From positions 1 through 23,318 of the IMG/VR virus record IMGVR_UViG_3300010391_000103: a stretch of 23,318 nt of DNA; one strand, given 5' to 3'. Position numbers and translations under genes: made by a program. The notes beneath the pieces were generated by a model. That model ran no database searches. It saw only the letters and a program-made list of their open reading frames with translations, and had not been told where the DNA came from. Source of the DNA: a virus. This document shows positions 15,703 to 22,463 of this stretch, in pieces (the stretch's first letter is position 1; the number at the start of each line of letters is the position of its first letter).

Positions 15703-15746
15703 GATAGCCGCAGGGCGTCGCGGAGTCTCAAGAGCCAAAGGATCAC
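15684..15746 (-). CDS. Leu/Arg-rich micro-ORF B
   Basis: This 20-residue reading, MILWLLRLRDALRLSKKRGG, starts at GTG 15746 in a GTGA overlap with the methyltransferase stop. Its end, one base before the GTG of the next gene, lies in the direct repeat. Its hydrophobic/Arg pattern resembles the start of the protein at 15336-15446. It may be a real peptide or just a coupling ORF that carries ribosomes to the next start. Translation is unproven. Confidence 0.4.
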   Translation of the reverse strand: MILWLLRLRDALRLSKKRGG

Positions 15747-17365
15747 GCGCATTCGGGAAACGGCGCGGTGAGCGCGGCCGTCCTCCTCGTCGCCATCTCC
15801 AGGTACTTCGCAGAGAGGTCAAGGCCGACCCCTCTCCTGCCCTCCTCGACGGAGACCCGGACCGTCGTCCCGGACCCGACGAAGGGGTCGAAGACGATGC
15901 CGCCTCGGGGACACCCCGCGAGGATGCACGGCTTGATGAGGTCGGGCGGGAAGGTGGCGAAGTGGGCCTCGGGGTAGGGCTGGGTGGCCACGGTCCAGAC
16001 GGAGCGGCGGTTGCGGGTGTCGCCGACGAGGCGCTCGCCCCTCAGTAGCGTCCGCTGGCGCTCAGGGTCAAACTCCTTCGTGCTCCCCAGGCCGTGCTTG
16101 ACATCGCCCGCATAGGTAGCCGGCTCGCTGATTGCGCTCGCGTCGTAGTAGTACCGCTCCGCCTTGGCCAGCAGGAACAGGTACTCGTGCGCCTTGGTGG
16201 GCCGGTCGGTCACGCTCTCCGGCATCGGATTCGGCTTCGCCCAGATGATGTCCGAGCGCAGGTACCAGCCGTCTGCGCGGAGGGCGAAGGCCAGCATCCA
16301 CGGGATCCCAACTAAGTCCTTTGGCTTAGGGGGCGCGATGCTTATACTTGGGTATGCCAAGCGCGAAGAAGACGTGTCCGACGTGCCGCGGACCGATGCA
16401 CCCGCGAGCGAGCCAGTGCCGCAAGTGCAAGCCGTCGTATCAGCGGACGCCGGAGCACAACGCGCGAATGAGCGAGCGCACAGCCGGCATAAAGCGTCCG
16501 GGGTGGAAGCCTGCGAGCGCGAGTCGCGCGACGGCTGAGCGCATTCGACGCTGGTGGAGTCCTGAGCGCAGCGAGGCTGCGCGCTTACGCGGGATGGCGC
16601 TGTCGCAAGATCCTGCGTGGCGTCTGCGCTGTGGCCAGCCTGCGGAGCGGAATCCGATGTGGGAGGATGGGAGGACGCAGATTCCGTATGCGCGAGGGTG
16701 GACGCGGACTGTGAAGCGTCTTGCGTGGGAGCGGGCGGGATACCGCTGTGAGAGATGCCTAGGCGATACGCCGCGCGACACGCATCACAGAGACTTCCGC
16801 AAAGACAATCACGATCTGGCGAATCTCCAGGTGCTTTGCCGCGCGTGTCACAAGCGACTGCACGCCGAACGCCACCGCGGAATGAGCCGCCACGCCCGCC
16901 CGGCGTCTCACGACTAGTGTCGTTGCGCCCCGTCTGCCTCGGCCCGCCCCCCATGTACGAGTCGCCGATGTTCAGAAAAAGAGTTCCGTCGGGTTTGAGG
17001 ATTCGCCGCACTTCGCGGAACACGGCGACCATCTCGGCGACGTACTGCTCGGGCGTGGATTCGAGGCCGAGCTGGGAGTCGATACGCTTGGCCCCGCACT
17101 TGGCGCATTCGGATTTGAACTGGCGTTCTAACGCGCGGAATGCGGCATTGTCGGGCGTGAGGCCGTCGCGCTTCGGCCCGAGGGTGCTTGACGCATGGAC
17201 CGACGCGGCTGTGCGCTCAACGTGATCGCACGCATCGTCCCCACCTTCCCACTTCGCCGTCCCGTAGTCCCGCAGGCCCCAGTAGGGGGGCGAGGTCACG
17301 CAGCAGTTCACGGACTCGTCCCGGAGAGGGATCTCGCGGGCGTTGGCTCGGATCAGGAGTCTCAC
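15743..17365 (-). CDS. Beta-class DNA N4-cytosine/N6-adenine methyltransferase carrying an in-frame insert
   Basis: Starting at GTG 17365, it has 540 residues. The catalytic motif TSPPYW is at 24-29 and the AdoMet-binding motif DPFVGSGTT at about 493-501; this order defines the beta class, and SPPY favours N4-cytosine. Typical blocks include QLGLESTPEQYVAEM, LFLNIGDSYMGGG and KPKDLVGIPW. Between the last two lie about 195 extra residues (roughly 145-342) that are Ser/Thr/Pro/Cys-rich and correspond to an HNH gene on the opposite strand. Family members are usually about 300-370 residues, so the insert accounts for the excess. It would methylate phage DNA, probably against host restriction. Whether the insert leaves it active is unknown. 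No stop or frameshift interrupts it. Confidence 0.85.
   Translation of the reverse strand: MRLLIRANAREIPLRDESVNCCVTSPPYWGLRDYGTAKWEGGDDACDHVERTAASVHASSTLGPKRDGLTPDNAAFRALERQFKSECAKCGAKRIDSQLGLESTPEQYVAEMVAVFREVRRILKPDGTLFLNIGDSYMGGGPRQTGRNDTSRETPGGRGGSFRGGVRRAVACDTRGKAPGDSPDRDCLCGSLCDACRAAYRLGISHSGIPPAPTQDASQSASTLAHTESASSHPPTSDSAPQAGHSADATQDLATAPSRVSAQPRCAQDSTSVECAQPSRDSRSQASTPDALCRLCARSFARCAPASADTTACTCGTGSLAGASVRGTSDTSSSRLAYPSISIAPPKPKDLVGIPWMLAFALRADGWYLRSDIIWAKPNPMPESVTDRPTKAHEYLFLLAKAERYYYDASAISEPATYAGDVKHGLGSTKEFDPERQRTLLRGERLVGDTRNRRSVWTVATQPYPEAHFATFPPDLIKPCILAGCPRGGIVFDPFVGSGTTVRVSVEEGRRGVGLDLSAKYLEMATRRTAALTAPFPECA
16321..16349 (+). promoter_or_regulatory. Candidate sigma-70-like promoter for the nested HNH gene
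   Basis: TTGGCT at 16321-16326 and TATACT at 16344-16349 are separated by 17 bases, matching 4 of 6 and 5 of 6 consensus bases. Transcription would start at or just after the ATG at 16354, so a leaderless transcript or a different start is implied. The -35 lies in the conserved methyltransferase coding part. Confidence 0.3.
16354..16917 (+). CDS. HNH homing endonuclease nested antisense in the methyltransferase gene
   Basis: This 187-residue plus-strand protein starts at ATG 16354; TTG 16348 would add two residues. The N-terminus has paired zinc-type motifs, CPTCRGPM and CRKCK. The middle has MWEDGRTQIPYARGWTRTV, similar to DNA-binding segments in phage HNH proteins. The C-terminal nuclease domain is clear: WERAGYRCERC, then HHRDFRKDNHDLANLQVLC, then CRACHKRLH, giving H-N-H residues plus CxxC/CxxC structural zinc. 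Such proteins cut at a target site and spread their own gene. It runs opposite to the host methyltransferase gene, whose frame stays open across it. It would spread into methyltransferase genes lacking the insert, by inference. Confidence 0.85.
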   Translation: MPSAKKTCPTCRGPMHPRASQCRKCKPSYQRTPEHNARMSERTAGIKRPGWKPASASRATAERIRRWWSPERSEAARLRGMALSQDPAWRLRCGQPAERNPMWEDGRTQIPYARGWTRTVKRLAWERAGYRCERCLGDTPRDTHHRDFRKDNHDLANLQVLCRACHKRLHAERHRGMSRHARPASHD

Positions 17366-17385
17366 CTCACGCTCCCCGCTTCTTC
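17362..17385. repeat. Direct repeat, right copy, bracketing the methyltransferase cassette
   Basis: The stretch matches 15679-15702 at 23 of 24 bases. It covers the last codons of the upstream 68-residue gene and the GTG of the methyltransferase. Recombination between the copies would delete the methyltransferase and micro-ORF B but keep a complete junction. Confidence 0.75.
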
Positions 17386-17573
17386 TTCTTGGGGGCCTTG
17401 GTCCAGACGACGGCGGTCCAGGTTCCCTCGCTCGACTTCGGGGTACCACGGATTCGCTTCATCGGGACGCCCGCGTAGGTGACCGAGGAAACGGTGGACG
17501 GAGGAGTAACGCTGACGCTCACGGATAGAACCGTCTCGTGGAGGGGGCGGCGGGGCTTCTTGGGGGGCTTCAC
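17367..17573 (-). CDS. Small basic protein of unknown function
   Basis: This 68-residue protein starts at GTG 17573 (GTGA overlap). It begins MKPPKKPRRPLHETVLSVSV, a Lys/Pro-rich basic start followed by alternating Ser/Val strands, and ends KAPKKKKRGA. The tail lies in the direct repeat and resembles the end of micro-ORF B (SKKRGG), as expected from the shared bases. Basic termini suggest nucleic-acid contact, but there is no recognised domain. Confidence 0.6.
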   Translation of the reverse strand: MKPPKKPRRPLHETVLSVSVSVTPPSTVSSVTYAGVPMKRIRGTPKSSEGTWTAVVWTKAPKKKKRGA

Positions 17574-17809
17574 GTCTTCGCCTCCTGTCCGAGGGCGGAG
17601 CGGATGCGCGCTGCCAGATCATCCACCCCGTTCATGTAAGCGATCGACTCGTTCAGACGGAGTGCGTCACTCTCTTTCGCGCACGCCTCCCCGAACTCGG
17701 CGAGCGCGCGGCGGATCTTCGCCTCGATGGCCGTCGGGGAGGTCGGACCCTCGTAGAGATCCCGCTCGGTCTGGTGGGCGATGCGGTCCAGGTCGTCCTT
17801 CAAGTTCAC
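17570..17809 (-). CDS. Small helical protein downstream of the structured RNA
   Basis: This 79-residue protein starts at GTG 17809 with a perfect AGGAGG (17815-17820) five bases upstream, unlike most neighbours, which rely on stop/start coupling. It begins MNLKDDLDRIAHQTERDLYE and is helical and acidic, with ALAEFGEACAKESDALRLNE in the middle and one cysteine. No motif is recognised. It is the first gene after the structured RNA region, so translation may be controlled by that structure. Confidence 0.7.
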   Translation of the reverse strand: MNLKDDLDRIAHQTERDLYEGPTSPTAIEAKIRRALAEFGEACAKESDALRLNESIAYMNGVDDLAARIRSALGQEAKT

Positions 17810-17829
17810 GTCAGCCTCCTAGTTGAAAA

Positions 17830-17960
17830 GGACCCCGCGGCCGGGTTCGAAACCGGCTTTGGCCCTTACTGGTGGTGGGTGTCCAGTCGTACCATGAGAG
17901 TCCGTAAGCCCACCGGCCCCTGGACTTGTCTAGCACGTCCTTCCGTGCTGCGCGGGGTCC
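17830..17960. ncRNA. Cloverleaf-like structured RNA candidate (strand unproven)
   Basis: The only large gap in the right-hand operon (17810-17964) folds as a closed multi-branch structure. A perfect 10-pair closing stem joins GGACCCCGCG (17830-17839) and CGCGGGGTCC (17951-17960). Inside are a 5-pair hairpin GCCGG/CCGGC (17840-17844, 17853-17857), a 6-pair stem GTCCAG/CTGGAC (17881-17886, 17920-17925) and a 5-pair hairpin GCACG/CGTGC (17933-17937, 17944-17948). CTTAC/GTAAG and GGTGGG/CCCACC offer competing or pseudoknot pairings across the middle. A canonical tRNA is not supported. On the minus strand it lies nine bases before the Shine-Dalgarno of the next gene, fitting a leader element, but an independent RNA is possible. 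Confidence 0.6.
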
Positions 17961-17964
17961 CAAA

Positions 17965-18072
17965 TTAGTGAATGCCTCCGCCCTTGTGACGGTCCCGTGT
18001 CTGGACCCATCGGAGTCGGATCTTTGGCTTCTTGCGCTTTCGGCGCTTATTAGGTTTGGGTCCCACGTTCAC
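17965..18072 (-). CDS. Small Lys/Arg-rich protein
   Basis: This 35-residue protein starts at GTG 18072 (GTGA overlap) and ends at TAA 17965, just before the structured RNA. It reads MNVGPKPNKRRKRKKPKIRL and ends in a Lys/Gly/His tail. More than a third of residues are basic, so it probably contacts nucleic acid. It is too short for a family call. It may be a peptide with a regulatory role, or simply the last coupled ORF before the gap. Confidence 0.5.
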   Translation of the reverse strand: MNVGPKPNKRRKRKKPKIRLRWVQTRDRHKGGGIH

Positions 18073-18299
18073 GTCTTCCTCCCCGCAATCCGCCACGCCT
18101 GTTTCTTGATCCACATGAGCCCGGACTTGCTCCACCGCTCGATGATCGCCTTGTTGACCGCGTGCCAGCCCACCGTCTCGCGGGCTACCAGCGCCATCGC
18201 GTAGGTGAGGGCAACGTCTCGGCGCTTCATCTCGTCGTCGGCGATCTCGGCGAGCAGGACGTTTGTGCAGTCGGTCAGTTCGATAGTGTAGTGGATCAC
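18069..18299 (-). CDS. Small unknown protein
   Basis: This 76-residue protein starts at GTG 18299 (GTGA overlap). It begins MIHYTIELTDCTNVLLAEIA and continues with an Ala-rich helix and SGLMWIKKQAWRIAGRKT at the end. The predicted secondary structure is mostly helical, with a basic C-terminus and one cysteine. No membrane segment or motif is evident. It is coupled to both neighbours. Confidence 0.6.
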   Translation of the reverse strand: MIHYTIELTDCTNVLLAEIADDEMKRRDVALTYAMALVARETVGWHAVNKAIIERWSKSGLMWIKKQAWRIAGRKT

Positions 18300-18568
18300 G
18301 ACCCCTCCCTCTCCTCCGCGAGGAGGAGGGCGCGGATCTCGGAGACAATCTCAGCGAGCAGCCCCTCGTTCTCTCCCTTGAGGTCGCCGTAGTGTTTTCG
18401 GAGCACAGCGCACGCCTCCTCGATCGCCTCGCGCCTGGCGTTCTCGCAGTCGGCGAGTAGGAAAACTACGTCGGCGAGCATCTGATCTCTTTCGTAGCGA
18501 GAACCCCCAAGCGTCGTGGTTTCTTCGAGCCGATCCCGGATCTCCCTCAACCTCTCCTCGGGCGTCAC
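18296..18568 (-). CDS. Small helical unknown protein
   Basis: This 90-residue protein starts at GTG 18568 (GTGA overlap with the preceding gene); the frame is open further upstream but overlaps that gene. It begins MTPEERLREIRDRLEETTTL, continues DQMLADVVFLLADCENARRE and ends in an acidic helix. It looks like a coiled-coil or helical bundle protein. It shares its MTPE-type start with the 149-residue gene at 18783, though the rest differs. Function is unknown. Confidence 0.6.
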   Translation of the reverse strand: MTPEERLREIRDRLEETTTLGGSRYERDQMLADVVFLLADCENARREAIEEACAVLRKHYGDLKGENEGLLAEIVSEIRALLLAEEREGS

Positions 18569-18786
18569 TTGGTCTCCTCCTTCTCCTTGGGCCTTGTTCC
18601 GCACATGTTCCACCCGCCTTCGTGATGGTCCATGGCGCAGTTGTCACAAAAGGAAACTGTCATCCCACAAAGCGGCTTAGGCTCCTTAACATCCCAAGGA
18701 CCGTAACACTCGTGGCGGTTTCCAAGAGGGGTTTCCATCTTCTCTCGGAAGGTCCAGCATGGTTGTCGTCCGACGGTGAAGTTCAC
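18565..18786 (-). CDS. Small Cys-rich, probably zinc-binding protein
   Basis: This 73-residue protein starts at GTG 18786 (GTGA overlap). It begins MNFTVGRQPCWTFREKMETP. Six or more cysteines and clustered histidines occur, including HECYGPW, LCGMTVSFCDNCAMDHH and NMCGTRP. The CxxC and DHH group suggest a metal site. The Lys/Glu-rich end (PKEKEETK) resembles that of the preceding gene (APKEKE). A zinc-stabilised small protein is likely; partners are unknown. Confidence 0.6.
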   Translation of the reverse strand: MNFTVGRQPCWTFREKMETPLGNRHECYGPWDVKEPKPLCGMTVSFCDNCAMDHHEGGWNMCGTRPKEKEETK

Positions 18787-19232
18787 TCCTTCTCCTTGGG
18801 CGCGGAGAGGGCAGGCCCCAGTAGAGCGCCCGCCATCGCGTCGATGATCCCAAGCCGCTTCGCCTCAACGTAGGGGATCTTCGAGACGCAGGCTTCCCAC
18901 TTGGCAAGGAACTCCTCCAGCGCCTTCACCCTCTCCCTCGCCTCGTCCCGCTGGCACCGGACGCACGGCCCGGGGTCCCCGCACCCGCCCGCGCCCTGGT
19001 AGTGCGTCACGCCCGAGGCGACCTCCGCGACGAGGTTGCGGGCGTCGTCGCGCTCGCGGAGGATCCGGGTCGTCTTCTCTCTGCGGACCGCCTTCGAGGG
19101 GCGAGATTGGGTCGCCTCCGCCCTCGCCGCAGCCGCGACCTTGCGGGCGAAGGCCGCCCGTTCTGCGGGACCGTGGGTGCCTCGACCGTTTCGGGCTTCG
19201 TCCCACCACCGCTCGACGTCCTCGGGCGTCAC
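18783..19232 (-). CDS. Unknown helical protein with a Cys motif
   Basis: This 149-residue protein starts at GTG 19232 (GTGA overlap). It begins MTPEDVERWWDEARNGRGTH. Ala/Arg/Glu-rich helices follow, then GGCGDPGPCVRCQRDEARER (about residues 82-101), where three cysteines could contribute to a metal site, then a helix ending near SAPKEKE. It may form a coiled coil. No family is recognised. It sits in the block of small accessory genes. Confidence 0.6.
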   Translation of the reverse strand: MTPEDVERWWDEARNGRGTHGPAERAAFARKVAAAARAEATQSRPSKAVRREKTTRILRERDDARNLVAEVASGVTHYQGAGGCGDPGPCVRCQRDEARERVKALEEFLAKWEACVSKIPYVEAKRLGIIDAMAGALLGPALSAPKEKE

Positions 19233-19414: not shown

Positions 19415-19760
19415 GCTTCTCCTTCTTCGCGTCCTCGACGGCGCGCTCGGCGGCATTGATCTCGTCGCACCCCGAAGCCCCATCCTTGCAGTACCGCCTG
19501 TAGGCCGCGAAGAACCGCTCGTGGAGGGCGAGGAGGGACTCGGCCTCTCGCCGTTCCTGCTCGATGCGCGCGCTCTGGTTGAGCCGCGCCTGGCGGAGAG
19601 CCTCCTCCGCCCGCTCGGCGCGATCCTGCCAGTCGATTCCGCCACTCGCGCTTCCGCCTGCGGTCACGTTGAAGGCTCCCGGAGGGCAGATGTGCCCAGC
19701 CGCGGTCGTCTGCGGAAGCGGCCACCCGCAGTAAGGACAGTTTCCGAACGGGCTGCTCAC
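19398..19760 (-). CDS. Zinc-ribbon-like plus coiled-coil protein
   Basis: This 120-residue protein starts at GTG 19760 (GTGA overlap with the HNH gene). The N-terminus carries GNCPYCGWPLPQTTAAGHIC (about residues 6-25), a CxxC...HxC metal site. The rest is a long charged helix from DWQDRAERAEEALRQARLNQ to AERAVEDAKKEKHG, a likely coiled coil, with two further cysteines. Zn-ribbon plus coiled coil could support protein or DNA binding. No specific family is recognised. Confidence 0.65.
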   Translation of the reverse strand: MSSPFGNCPYCGWPLPQTTAAGHICPPGAFNVTAGGSASGGIDWQDRAERAEEALRQARLNQSARIEQERREAESLLALHERFFAAYRRYCKDGASGCDEINAAERAVEDAKKEKHGPQE

Positions 19761-20230
19761 GCCTCGCTCCTCACGGCGGAGAGGGCGGTCCTTTTCCTCT
19801 CGGCTCTCACGCGGTTGCGCTTTCTCCAGTAGGCGGAAGTGCACGGGCGGCATCTCCGTTCGCCCCCAGAGATGAAAAGATGAGGCTCATCCTTAGGATG
19901 GCCACACTTGAAGGTGGGCTTGTAGTGTTGCCAGTTCCTGTAGCGTCCTTTGCGAAGGCAGTCGCGCACGTTGTCGGTATGGGTGCCAAGAAATAAGTGG
20001 TCAATCCTTACACAGGAAGGGTTGTCGCACTTGTGGAGAACGAACAAGCCTTTCGGTATAGGGCCGTTGGCAATCGTCCAGAAAACGCGATGAGCAGTAG
20101 TATGGCGCCCGTCGAATGTGATTGCACCGTAGCCCCAGGAAAAGTTTCCGCCAGTCCATTCCCAGCAAGAAGGCGTGAGCCTGACCTTCTTCCAGATGCG
20201 CTCGTGCAACGGCTTGAGCTGCGCGCTCAT
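19757..20230 (-). CDS. Free-standing HNH endonuclease
   Basis: This 157-residue protein starts at ATG 20230 (ATGA overlap). It begins MSAQLKPLHERIWKKVRLTP. The nuclease domain is visible: SCWEWTGGNFSWGYGAITFD (about residues 21-40), a helix with HRVFW, then LHKCDNPSCVRIDHLFLGTH, the H-N-H core. The C-terminal part has KCGH and CRPC, likely a small zinc finger. Such HNH_3-type proteins are phage homing endonucleases. The local DNA is less GC-rich than its neighbours, a sign of recent transfer. It sits between small genes rather than in an obvious intron, and its target is unknown. Confidence 0.85.
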   Translation of the reverse strand: MSAQLKPLHERIWKKVRLTPSCWEWTGGNFSWGYGAITFDGRHTTAHRVFWTIANGPIPKGLFVLHKCDNPSCVRIDHLFLGTHTDNVRDCLRKGRYRNWQHYKPTFKCGHPKDEPHLFISGGERRCRPCTSAYWRKRNRVRAERKRTALSAVRSEA

Positions 20231-20280
20231 GGCAGTTTGTCGTCCTCCAGCCTCGCCCTGATCTCGGCCTCGCGGGTCAT
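20227..20280 (-). CDS. Micro-ORF of 17 codons
   Basis: The reading MTREAEIRARLEDDKLP starts at ATG 20280, overlapping the previous stop as ATGA, and ends in an ATGA overlap with the HNH start at 20230. It is a charged helix. It may be a real peptide or the remnant left by HNH insertion, since it bridges two coupled starts. Translation is unproven. Confidence 0.4.
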   Translation of the reverse strand: MTREAEIRARLEDDKLP

Positions 20281-20387
20281 CGGGCGATCCTGTCCAAACG
20301 ACGCAACGCAGCGCACCCGCACAGAACAAGGAAGTAGATGATGACGGGCCAGTTCAGGCGCCGCTCGCGGGCAGGGGGGGTGGTCAT
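20277..20387 (-). CDS. Small single-pass membrane protein
   Basis: This 36-residue protein starts at ATG 20387 (ATGA overlap). It reads MTTPPARERRLNWPVIIYFL with the hydrophobic run NWPVIIYFLVLCGCAAL (about residues 12-28), flanked by Arg-rich ends (ARERR and RRLDRIAR). It would insert once in a membrane. Its role is unknown; small phage membrane proteins often affect host functions. Confidence 0.55.
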   Translation of the reverse strand: MTTPPARERRLNWPVIIYFLVLCGCAALRRLDRIAR

Positions 20388-20696: not shown

Positions 20697-20854
20697 GGCT
20701 TCTCCTCCTCCTCCCGCGCCGCGACGCAGGAGGGGCAGTCGCAATCGCAGCCCTCGGAACAGCAGCCGCTAGAGGTCTGATGGAGCCTGGCCTTGGGATG
20801 AACGCCGCAGTGCTCCGCGACGGGGCGGGGATCGGGAGCCTTGTCTAGCGGCAT
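20693..20854 (-). CDS. Small Cys-rich peptide
   Basis: This 53-residue protein starts at ATG 20854, overlapping the preceding gene by ten bases. It begins MPLDKAPDPRPVAEHCGVHP. Eight cysteines occur within 28 residues, including SGCCSEGCDCDCPSC (29-43), with nearby His residues. A compact metal-binding peptide is likely, possibly binding more than one zinc. It ends in REEEEKP. I know no named family for it. Confidence 0.55.
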   Translation of the reverse strand: MPLDKAPDPRPVAEHCGVHPKARLHQTSSGCCSEGCDCDCPSCVAAREEEEKP

Positions 20855-21210
20855 GGGGTCACCACCTTCTTGTGCTTCGCCTCGCAGTGCCGTGCGAGGT
20901 TCCCGAACGTCCGCTTACACCACGGGCAGACACCGCGGCCGATGCGCCGCTCGATTCGGCGTGCGCGCTCCTCGGCTGAAGCCTTCTCTGAGAACAGGCG
21001 GTTACGCTCCGCGGCGAGGTCGGCGACCTGCTTCTTCAGCCGATCGACCTCGCTCGTTACGTAGGCGCGCGGATGTCCGTTGGGGCAGTAGAACGTCTCG
21101 CCGTTATCCAGCTTGTCCGAGCGGAAGCGGCTAGGCACTCCGAAGTGGGTGCCGCACTTCCCGCACTCCATCACGTCGAGGGTGATCGTCTCCTGAATCT
21201 GGGTCGTCAT
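20845..21210 (-). CDS. Double zinc-finger protein
   Basis: This 121-residue protein starts at ATG 21210 (ATGA overlap with the ATPase gene). It begins MTTQIQETITLDVMECGKCG. The first metal site is CGKCGTHFG with YCPNGH about 20 residues later. A charged helical middle (residues about 45-85, DRLKKQVADLAAERNRLFSE) is a likely coiled coil. A C2H2-like finger, CPWCKRTFGNLARHCEAKH, lies near the C-terminus. This arrangement (Cys/His ribbon, coiled coil, finger) occurs in small phage proteins and suggests DNA or RNA binding. Its partner could be the ATPase it is coupled to. Confidence 0.75.
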   Translation of the reverse strand: MTTQIQETITLDVMECGKCGTHFGVPSRFRSDKLDNGETFYCPNGHPRAYVTSEVDRLKKQVADLAAERNRLFSEKASAEERARRIERRIGRGVCPWCKRTFGNLARHCEAKHKKVVTPCR

Positions 21211-22463
21211 CGCGTCTCCTTCACCGCCCCGTCCTCGATCAGGACGGAGACCTCCGGGCCGTCCCCGACGCGCTCGAGCCAGACCTGCATGTCCGCCCGC
21301 TTCGCCCAATCGGCGATGAACGCGACCGCCTTCGCGTCGAGAAGCGAGCCGTCGCGGCATCGGATGACGCGGAGCTTCGGGTTGAGCGCCGCCCCGATCG
21401 CAAGGGACACCTTGAGCGCCTCCGCCTGCGACGCCTGCTCGAGTGGGAGCCCGCCGAAGGTGACGCGCTCGTTCTCCGTGTCGAGCCCGAGTCCCTCGAC
21501 GGGGAAGGCTGCGCCCGCGAGCCGCCGCGCGCGCTCCTCGTCTGCGGCGTCGATCTGCCCGACGAGTTTCGCCGCCTCGTTTCGGATCACGGCAAGTTCC
21601 ATCTCCGCCGCGATCCGCGCTCGCTTCTGACGGACCCGCGCGTTCACCGCCTCGACCTCCTCGACGGCCTTACGAAGCGGCTCCTCGTCCACGACGGCGA
21701 TCTTGGCGATCCGCCCCTCAACGAGCGCCAGATCCTCCTCCCAGTGCCTGAGCTCCATCTGCTCCCCTGCGAGGAAGCCCTCGTACTCCGCGATGTTGTC
21801 CAGGGCTCGCTTGATCTGCGCCTCTACGCCCCGCTCGCGTTGGATCTCGTCTTCTCTCTTGCGGTTGTTCGCGCGTGCCGCCTCGAGCGCGGTCATGCGG
21901 TCCTTGAGGGCCACCTCCGTGTCCGGCGTTCCGGGCGGTGGCGCGGGCATCCGCGCGACGGCGCCGGCAAGCTCGCGCTCCTTCCGGTTAACGAGCGTCC
22001 TCTCGTCGAAAGCCGCCTTCCGCGCGGCGTCGAGGTCGGCGAAGTCGAGCCCAGCGATCTTCCGTAGCGTCTCCGCCTGCTCCTTCGGCGCGAGACGCAG
22101 GAAGTCGAGCGGCTCGAACGAGAGCCGGCCGAAGAGCGAGTCGAGAAGCGCCTGCGGCGACGTGACTTTCCCCTTCCCCTTCGCGTGGACCTCGAGCGTC
22201 GACCTCCCGTCCGAGGTCCAGCTCCGCGAGACGACCAGTTCGTCGAGATCGAGGACGACGCGCGCCGTCTTCTCTCCGCGCCTCACCGGTTCCGGAGGCG
22301 CGTGCGCGGCGCCGCCCATCGCCATCTCGATGCTGTCGAGGACGGCGGACTTGCCCGCTCCGTTCTCCCCTCCAACCACGATGAGGTTCCCGTTCGGGTC
22401 TGGGCGGATGGACACCGCCCGCAACCTTTTCACGTTCTCCGCTTCGAGCTGCACGATCTTCAC
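21207..22463 (-). CDS. SMC/RecF-like AAA ATPase
   Basis: This 418-residue protein starts at GTG 22463 with AAGGAG eight bases upstream. It begins MKIVQLEAENVKRLRAVSIR, the 'l.aeNvKrl.av.i.P.g' start of RecF/SMC ATPases. Walker A is GGENGAGKS (31-39). The middle (about 150-300) is a charged coiled coil from DLDAARKAAFDERTLVNRKE to EVNARVRQKRARIAAEMELA. LEQASQAEALKVSLAIGAAL followed by LRVIRCRDGSLLD near residue 340-385 fits the signature and Walker B region of a phage subfamily. It likely acts in recombination or repair with a nuclease partner, possibly the protein at 14468-15073. Confidence 0.85.
   Translation of the reverse strand: MKIVQLEAENVKRLRAVSIRPDPNGNLIVVGGENGAGKSAVLDSIEMAMGGAAHAPPEPVRRGEKTARVVLDLDELVVSRSWTSDGRSTLEVHAKGKGKVTSPQALLDSLFGRLSFEPLDFLRLAPKEQAETLRKIAGLDFADLDAARKAAFDERTLVNRKERELAGAVARMPAPPPGTPDTEVALKDRMTALEAARANNRKREDEIQRERGVEAQIKRALDNIAEYEGFLAGEQMELRHWEEDLALVEGRIAKIAVVDEEPLRKAVEEVEAVNARVRQKRARIAAEMELAVIRNEAAKLVGQIDAADEERARRLAGAAFPVEGLGLDTENERVTFGGLPLEQASQAEALKVSLAIGAALNPKLRVIRCRDGSLLDAKAVAFIADWAKRADMQVWLERVGDGPEVSVLIEDGAVKETR

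Follow-up and report, generated by a model that had tools for sequence, protein, structure and literature searches.

A candidate regulatory RNA with a predicted five-way junction fold in the only large gap of a phage accessory operon

The RNA encoded by a 155-nt gap in the accessory operon of a phage is an orphan candidate regulatory element, which combines good single-sequence folding statistics with a neat position and a mechanism that can be tested. Folding models support a stable, well-defined and non-coding structure outside known families, and on balance we judge it somewhat more likely than not that a selected RNA structure of some kind is present. The window analyzed here, i.e. the whole stretch of DNA under study, is a linear 23,318-base IMG/VR virus record with a GC content of 67.7%, which carries terminase and portal-like phage genes. 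Almost all of its genes lie on the minus strand, so the gap is to be read as its reverse complement. To our knowledge, few structured RNAs within phage operons have been described. If real, the element would be a compact fold outside all known families with a testable role in setting the output of neighboring genes; if not, it would be a clean example of single-sequence folding misleading in GC-rich phages without relatives.

No match to the window was obtained at the DNA level among phage records, and its terminase reaches 22-28% identity at best to known terminases. The SbcC-like ATPase is closer, with about 40% identity to counterparts in Arthrobacter and Gordonia phages. Judging from such protein similarities, the host is likely actinobacterial; the best hint comes from a zinc finger-like gene at 20845-21360 (minus strand), which shares 25-36% identity with counterparts in prophages of Mycobacterium abscessus and in Gordonia phages. 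The operon that contains the gap also includes an HNH_3-type endonuclease gene (19757-20329, minus strand; Pfam E 4e-17). Its codon use is atypical (-0.12 bits per codon), and the gene is probably a recent import.

The gap spans 17810-17964, between the gene boundaries at 17,809 and 17,965 of a minus-strand operon. With this exception, genes from 17,367 to 19,232 overlap by 4 to 49 nt, and no other gap in the accessory operon exceeds 60 nt. Upstream lies a 35-aa ORF (17965-18072, minus strand), whose GTG overlaps the TGA of a 76-aa gene and is preceded by GGAGG. Its codon score is ambiguous (-0.02 bits per codon) and its peptide is very basic (seven lysines, seven arginines, no glutamate and one aspartate). 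Being encoded directly before the folded RNA, this peptide is a candidate RNA-binding peptide. The downstream 79-aa gene (17570-17809, minus strand) has a coding-like score of 0.46 bits per codon and belongs to no family, with no Pfam match and no clear PHROG match. Its translation start (17808-17820, minus strand) consists of a perfect AGGAGG at 17815-17820, located five bases before the GTG. No promoter-like or terminator-like site was detected between 17300 and 19300, which is weak evidence in a GC-rich phage. We also noted a 16-nt direct repeat (81%) at 17786-17801 and 17928-17943, which joins the P2 loop region described below to the start of the 79-aa gene; its two copies share a reading frame (KDVLDKS versus KDDLDRI).

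The minimum free energy structure of the minus-strand gap RNA is a five-way junction with a closing stem and four arms, in which most pairs have a probability above 0.9. The whole folded domain (17829-17961, minus strand) has a predicted energy of -65.7 to -66.1 kcal/mol. Its closing stem P1 (17951-17961 with 17829-17839) comprises 11 pairs, of which 10 are Watson-Crick pairs between GGACCCCGCG and CGCGGGGTCC (17951-17960 and 17830-17839) and the last is a G-U pair between 17961 and 17829. The P2 hairpin (17932-17949) has six pairs, AGCACG/CGTGCT, around a GAAGGA loop, with pair probabilities of 0.92-1.0. P3 (17899-17926) has 5+5 pairs, AGTCC/GGACT and GGGCC/GGCTT, separated by an internal loop and capped by GGTG (probabilities 0.64-1.0). 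P4 (17860-17894) has 4+5 pairs, TGGT/GCCA followed by ACTGG/CCAGT at 17868-17887, with the loop ACACCCACCA (probabilities 0.81-1.0). Finally, the T-arm-like P5 hairpin (17840-17857) has five pairs, GCCGG/CCGGC, around the 8-nt loop TTTCGAAC (probabilities 0.91-1.0), and its DNA forms an 18-bp near-perfect palindrome. P5 stacks directly on P1, resulting in a continuous 16-pair stack followed by TTTT. The fold begins 3 nt after the upstream gene and ends 9 nt before the next ribosome-binding site, the nine-base spacer between closing stem and AGGAGG being TTTTCAACT. A previous sequence-only reading had described a perfect 10-pair closing stem, a 6-pair stem, two 5-pair hairpins, nine bases between the stem and an AGGAGG, and a position in the only large gap of the operon. 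The folding recovers all of these helices on the minus strand as the closing stem and arms of the minimum free energy structure, the spacing is exact with respect to 17815-17820, and the other neighbors between 17.37 and 19.23 kb indeed overlap by 4-49 nt.

Comparison with shuffled sequences had been named beforehand as a test of this fold, and it came out in favor of greater stability. Only 9 of 1000 dinucleotide shuffles reach the energy of the whole 155-nt gap, and none of 500 is as stable as the 136-nt core. The core is also unusually well defined, with an ensemble diversity of 5.6 compared to a shuffle mean of 28.9 (2/500 shuffles as low). Its z-score of -3.65 is the lowest among 682 grid windows of the same length, although the core edges had been tuned to fit. 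Among 1000 shuffles of the gap, 4 contain a perfect helix that reaches 10 bp or more and spans 80 nt or more. Since inverted repeats of 10 nt or more within 170 nt occur 19 times in the window, a perfect 10-bp stem is unremarkable by itself in a GC-rich genome, and one further grid window (7413) is equally stable and well defined. What stands out is the combination of elements, together with how exactly it is fitted between a stop codon and a ribosome-binding site. Folding of a single sequence is not proof of a functional structure, as a section heading of one paper puts it: "Beware of single-sequence analyses" (PMC11234323).

The domain contains further, mutually crossing complementarity. GGTGGG (17914-17909) can pair with CCCACC (17879-17874), linking the P3 loop to the P4 loop across 17874-17914, and CTTAC (17908-17904) is complementary to GTAAG (17869-17865) across 17865-17908. 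Both cross as the sequence-only reading had proposed; absent from it was a third helix, GTCCAG (17925-17920) with CTGGAC (17886-17881), which spans 17881-17925 on the same minus strand and crosses the other two. The middle 74 nt contain nine pairs of mutually crossing helices, a number reached by 0/500 shuffles (mean 0.4), while over the whole core crossing helices are ordinary (138/500 shuffles). The suggestion that these pairings form a switch fares less well than the pairings themselves. When forced alone, the GTCCAG/CTGGAC, GGTGGG/CCCACC and CTTAC/GTAAG helices lie about 4.5, 6.4 and 10 kcal/mol above the nested fold, respectively, and switching among them is therefore not favored energetically. 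These costs apply to nested folds of the RNA by itself. Within the same set of folds, one structure dominates and no alternative is close in energy. GGTG of P3 might also touch CACC of P4 in a loop-loop (kissing) contact, which would fit alongside this fold.

In agreement with the earlier impression that the RNA resembles no known family, Rfam 15 covariance models gave no match in the window at the gathering threshold, and only two chance matches (10.6 and 10.3 bits) in the gap at E up to 10. ARAGORN found no tRNA in the window at default settings; with introns and relaxed thresholds, it returned only spurious folds that never used the P1 and P5 arms. Canonical tRNAs have a 7-bp acceptor stem, a 7-nt T-loop and an anticodon arm, and the 8-nt loop of the 5-pair hairpin departs from the T-loop. 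Hence, the proposal of a tRNA mimic was not borne out, with neither the putative acceptor nor the T-arm ever recognized. A tmRNA, in which tRNA-like ends enclose a tag reading frame, was likewise rejected: the single ARAGORN call, at a 60% threshold, was spurious, had different ends, and came with no identified tag.

Searches for relatives of the locus were similarly negative. DNA similarity in phage records was limited to a 24-nt chance match. The route through flanking genes (the 127-aa frame, the 76-, 105- and 79-aa genes, the terminase and the 374-aa gene) led to nothing or to distant kin of 22-27% identity that lack the accessory genes, and the many relatives of the methyltransferase have unrelated neighborhoods. 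Exact DNA patterns derived from the RNA had no match in IMG/VR, nor did the closing-stem pattern with a free interior; the latter had 67 matches in GTDB genomes, with unrelated interiors. A single-sequence covariance model, an approach of low sensitivity, recovered only itself plus weak chance matches in the loci compared; a sample of 794 genomes yielded no match at E up to 0.001.

Two sets of sequences that share the ends of the element deserve mention in their own right. Several Roseomonas genomes contain an interspersed repeat family of about 120-141 nt that shares the 10-bp termini GGACCCCGCG...CGCGGGGTCC and encloses a GCCTGAGGTC/GACCTCAGGC hairpin (loci L087, L088, L090-L093, L099, L106, L111, L117, L118, L122, L123, L129, L131, L133, L135, L142 and L143), the interiors of which are unrelated to the window. 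The closing-stem pattern also matches Gordonia asplenii at L114:7271-7405, a region that resembles the small SRP RNA by its GGAAGGCAGCAAGGGUC motif; this match looks like chance sharing of the terminal stem sequence.

Four explanations compete with a cis-acting RNA. The gap could be filled by a short protein gene with incidental structure, given that a 50-aa ORF (TTG at 17963 to TGA at 17811; 17811-17963, minus strand) has exactly the length of the gap, is spaced by 1 nt from both neighbors and has GGAGG 11 nt upstream of its TTG; its KDVLDKS segment is moreover similar to KDDLDRI, which the 79-aa protein carries near its start, with the frame shared. Against such a gene, which we regard as very improbable, codon statistics trained on the larger genes of the phage assign the frame -0.34 bits per codon, a value that falls below the first percentile of coding windows (-0.20) and is what wrong frames usually give. 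Its GC3 is 0.63 compared to about 0.85, the start codon is rare, the spacing from GGAGG is long, and searches for protein homologs gave no match. Codon scores are in fact negative in all six frames of the gap, which is thus disfavored as a gene and read as non-coding, with some reserve, since short imported genes can also score low. A more serious rival, although still on the unlikely side, is a chance fold in an ordinary or decaying spacer of a 68% GC genome. The abundance of inverted repeats in the window, the equal stability and definition of window 7413 and the lack of demonstrable conservation all fit a chance origin, and the element was picked by eye while 23 kb were scanned for structure, which inflates its significance. 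Such an origin sits less well with the energy comparison, in which the fold beats 991/1000 shuffles as the whole gap and 500/500 as the trimmed core, with its very low ensemble diversity (2/500), and with the fact that gene layout, and not the fold alone, singled out the gap.

The same structure could instead belong to a free-standing, trans-acting phage RNA, either processed from the message or transcribed alone, that serves as a small RNA or decoy. Its compact, self-closed shape, with ends 3 nt from a gene and 9 nt from a ribosome-binding site, would suit an independent molecule, as would the 16-pair P1+P5 stack before TTTT, the T-arm-like TTCGA in P5 and the GG in the P2 loop, as in a D-loop. 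We nevertheless consider a free RNA rather unlikely, because the region lacks promoter-like and terminator-like sites, Rfam yields nothing at E up to 10 beyond the two chance matches, ARAGORN never uses the proposed acceptor or T-arm, and no copy occurs elsewhere. Least probable is an element acting at the level of DNA, i.e. either a small inserted element bounded by inverted repeats of 10-11 bp or a palindrome at P5 that binds a protein. The repeats GGACCCCGCG and CGCGGGGTCC, with TTT on both flanks, are reminiscent of a mobile element, and the 18-bp near-palindrome at 17840-17857 could attract a protein; yet the window contains no second copy, IMG/VR contains no element with these ends, and the interiors of the 67 genome sequences that match the ends are unrelated.

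As a working model, put forward tentatively as possible, we propose that the gap encodes an intercistronic RNA that acts in cis and masks or bridges translation of the 79-aa gene. From the stop codon of the 35-aa ORF to the ribosome-binding site of the 79-aa gene, 132 nt show no codon bias and are predicted to form one dominant, highly stable five-way junction. Once P1 has formed, the stop codon of the upstream ORF and the AGGAGG of the downstream gene are predicted to flank the base of a single helix. The final 15 nt of the 35-aa ORF (17967-17981) are predicted to pair with AGGAGG and GTG across this base, with probabilities mostly of 0.7-1.0, dropping to 0.45-0.63 when one longer context is folded. 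Putative translation of the upstream ORF would open this outer pairing and permit initiation on the 79-aa gene, whereas the domain would keep both sites together, such that the 155-nt gap might behave like the 4-nt overlaps of the operon. The domain could also be the target of a ligand, for which the basic 35-aa peptide is a speculative candidate.

Several observations argue for the cis-acting model: the stability and definedness beyond shuffles, the non-coding codon statistics in all six frames, the way the fold fits exactly into the space from the stop codon to the ribosome-binding site, its placement in the only large gap of an otherwise overlapping string of genes, and the predicted masking of AGGAGG. 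The lack of promoter-like or terminator-like sites, weak evidence as it is, favors the gap being part of the operon message. A precedent is provided by uS7, which acts on the structured rpsL-rpsG intercistronic region and represses coupled translation only (PMC10931766). Other results count against the model. AGGAGG has a mean unpaired probability of 0.10 when 200 nt of upstream sequence are included and of 0.49 with 120 nt, and its opening cost of 7.0 kcal/mol (200 nt upstream) ranks the 79-aa start about eighth among 22 starts in the window, which range from 1.3 to 11.7 kcal/mol. Masking is thus lower with the shorter context and not distinctive compared to other starts in the window, and we rejected it as proof of regulation. 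Furthermore, the perfect AGGAGG of the 79-aa gene might let it do without coupling, and no homolog was found that could provide evidence of selection. Coupling is reported to fall quickly with distance and to be lowered by structure just after the stop codon (reviewed in PMC12548453), which disfavors simple reinitiation and keeps bridging hypothetical. A bolder version, improbable in our estimate, would be a new class of phage RNA, in which a tRNA-like five-way junction with a loop-loop pseudoknot acts as an inter-cistron bridge bound by the 35-aa peptide, which would control its own operon, or else as a free mimic of a host RNA.

By arrangement, the closest known case is the rpsL-rpsG element of the Escherichia coli str operon, the target of uS7, which likewise consists of structured RNA between two cistrons of an operon, ahead of a small gene. 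The likeness is one of position and perhaps mechanism, not of sequence: there is no sequence or Rfam match, the genes are unrelated and no protein ligand is known for the phage element. In addition, rpsL-rpsG is tied to coupled translation of its flanking genes (PMC10931766), whereas coupling across the phage gap is only hypothesized. The predicted pairing of the downstream ribosome-binding site with the end of the upstream frame recalls translational coupling through RNA unfolding, as in phage MS2 coat-lysis and E. coli rpmI-rplT (PMC12548453). In contrast to these systems, where the spacing is -50 and +52 nt, the phage genes are 155 nt apart, the spacing is filled by an independent folded domain, and masking is no stronger than at the other starts of the window.

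In outline, the fold resembles the cloverleaf of tRNA (RF00005), tmRNA and bacterial Y RNAs, with a closing stem, a D-arm-like hairpin whose loop contains GG, two arms in the middle, and a 5-pair hairpin that resembles a T-arm and adjoins the closing stem. This is a resemblance only, as several defining features of tRNA fail: the closing stem has 11 pairs, the T-like loop has 8 instead of 7 nt, and there is neither a usable anticodon arm nor CCA. Similar to riboswitches and leader-peptide attenuators, the element forms a junction of several branches, lies close to a ribosome-binding site and follows a short ORF; unlike them, it is located inside an operon rather than in a 5′ leader, matches no family and shows, among nested folds, no alternative of near energy. 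A riboswitch, a regulatory leader and an independent RNA would each be compatible with the present analysis.

A separate observation concerns the DNA methyltransferase ORF at 15743-17449 (minus strand), which contains an HNH endonuclease-like ORF in antisense orientation (16348-16917, plus strand). It matches PHROG HNH families with E-values down to 9e-10 and fills an insert at about residues 180-370 of the methyltransferase. This insert is apparently absent from other methyltransferase relatives such as L005, and our literature search returned no description of an antisense HNH ORF inside a methyltransferase gene. Homologous antisense HNH ORFs are found inside the methyltransferase genes of L002, L003 and L004, and the antisense HNH reading outmatches the sense insert (85 versus 33 bits in L004).
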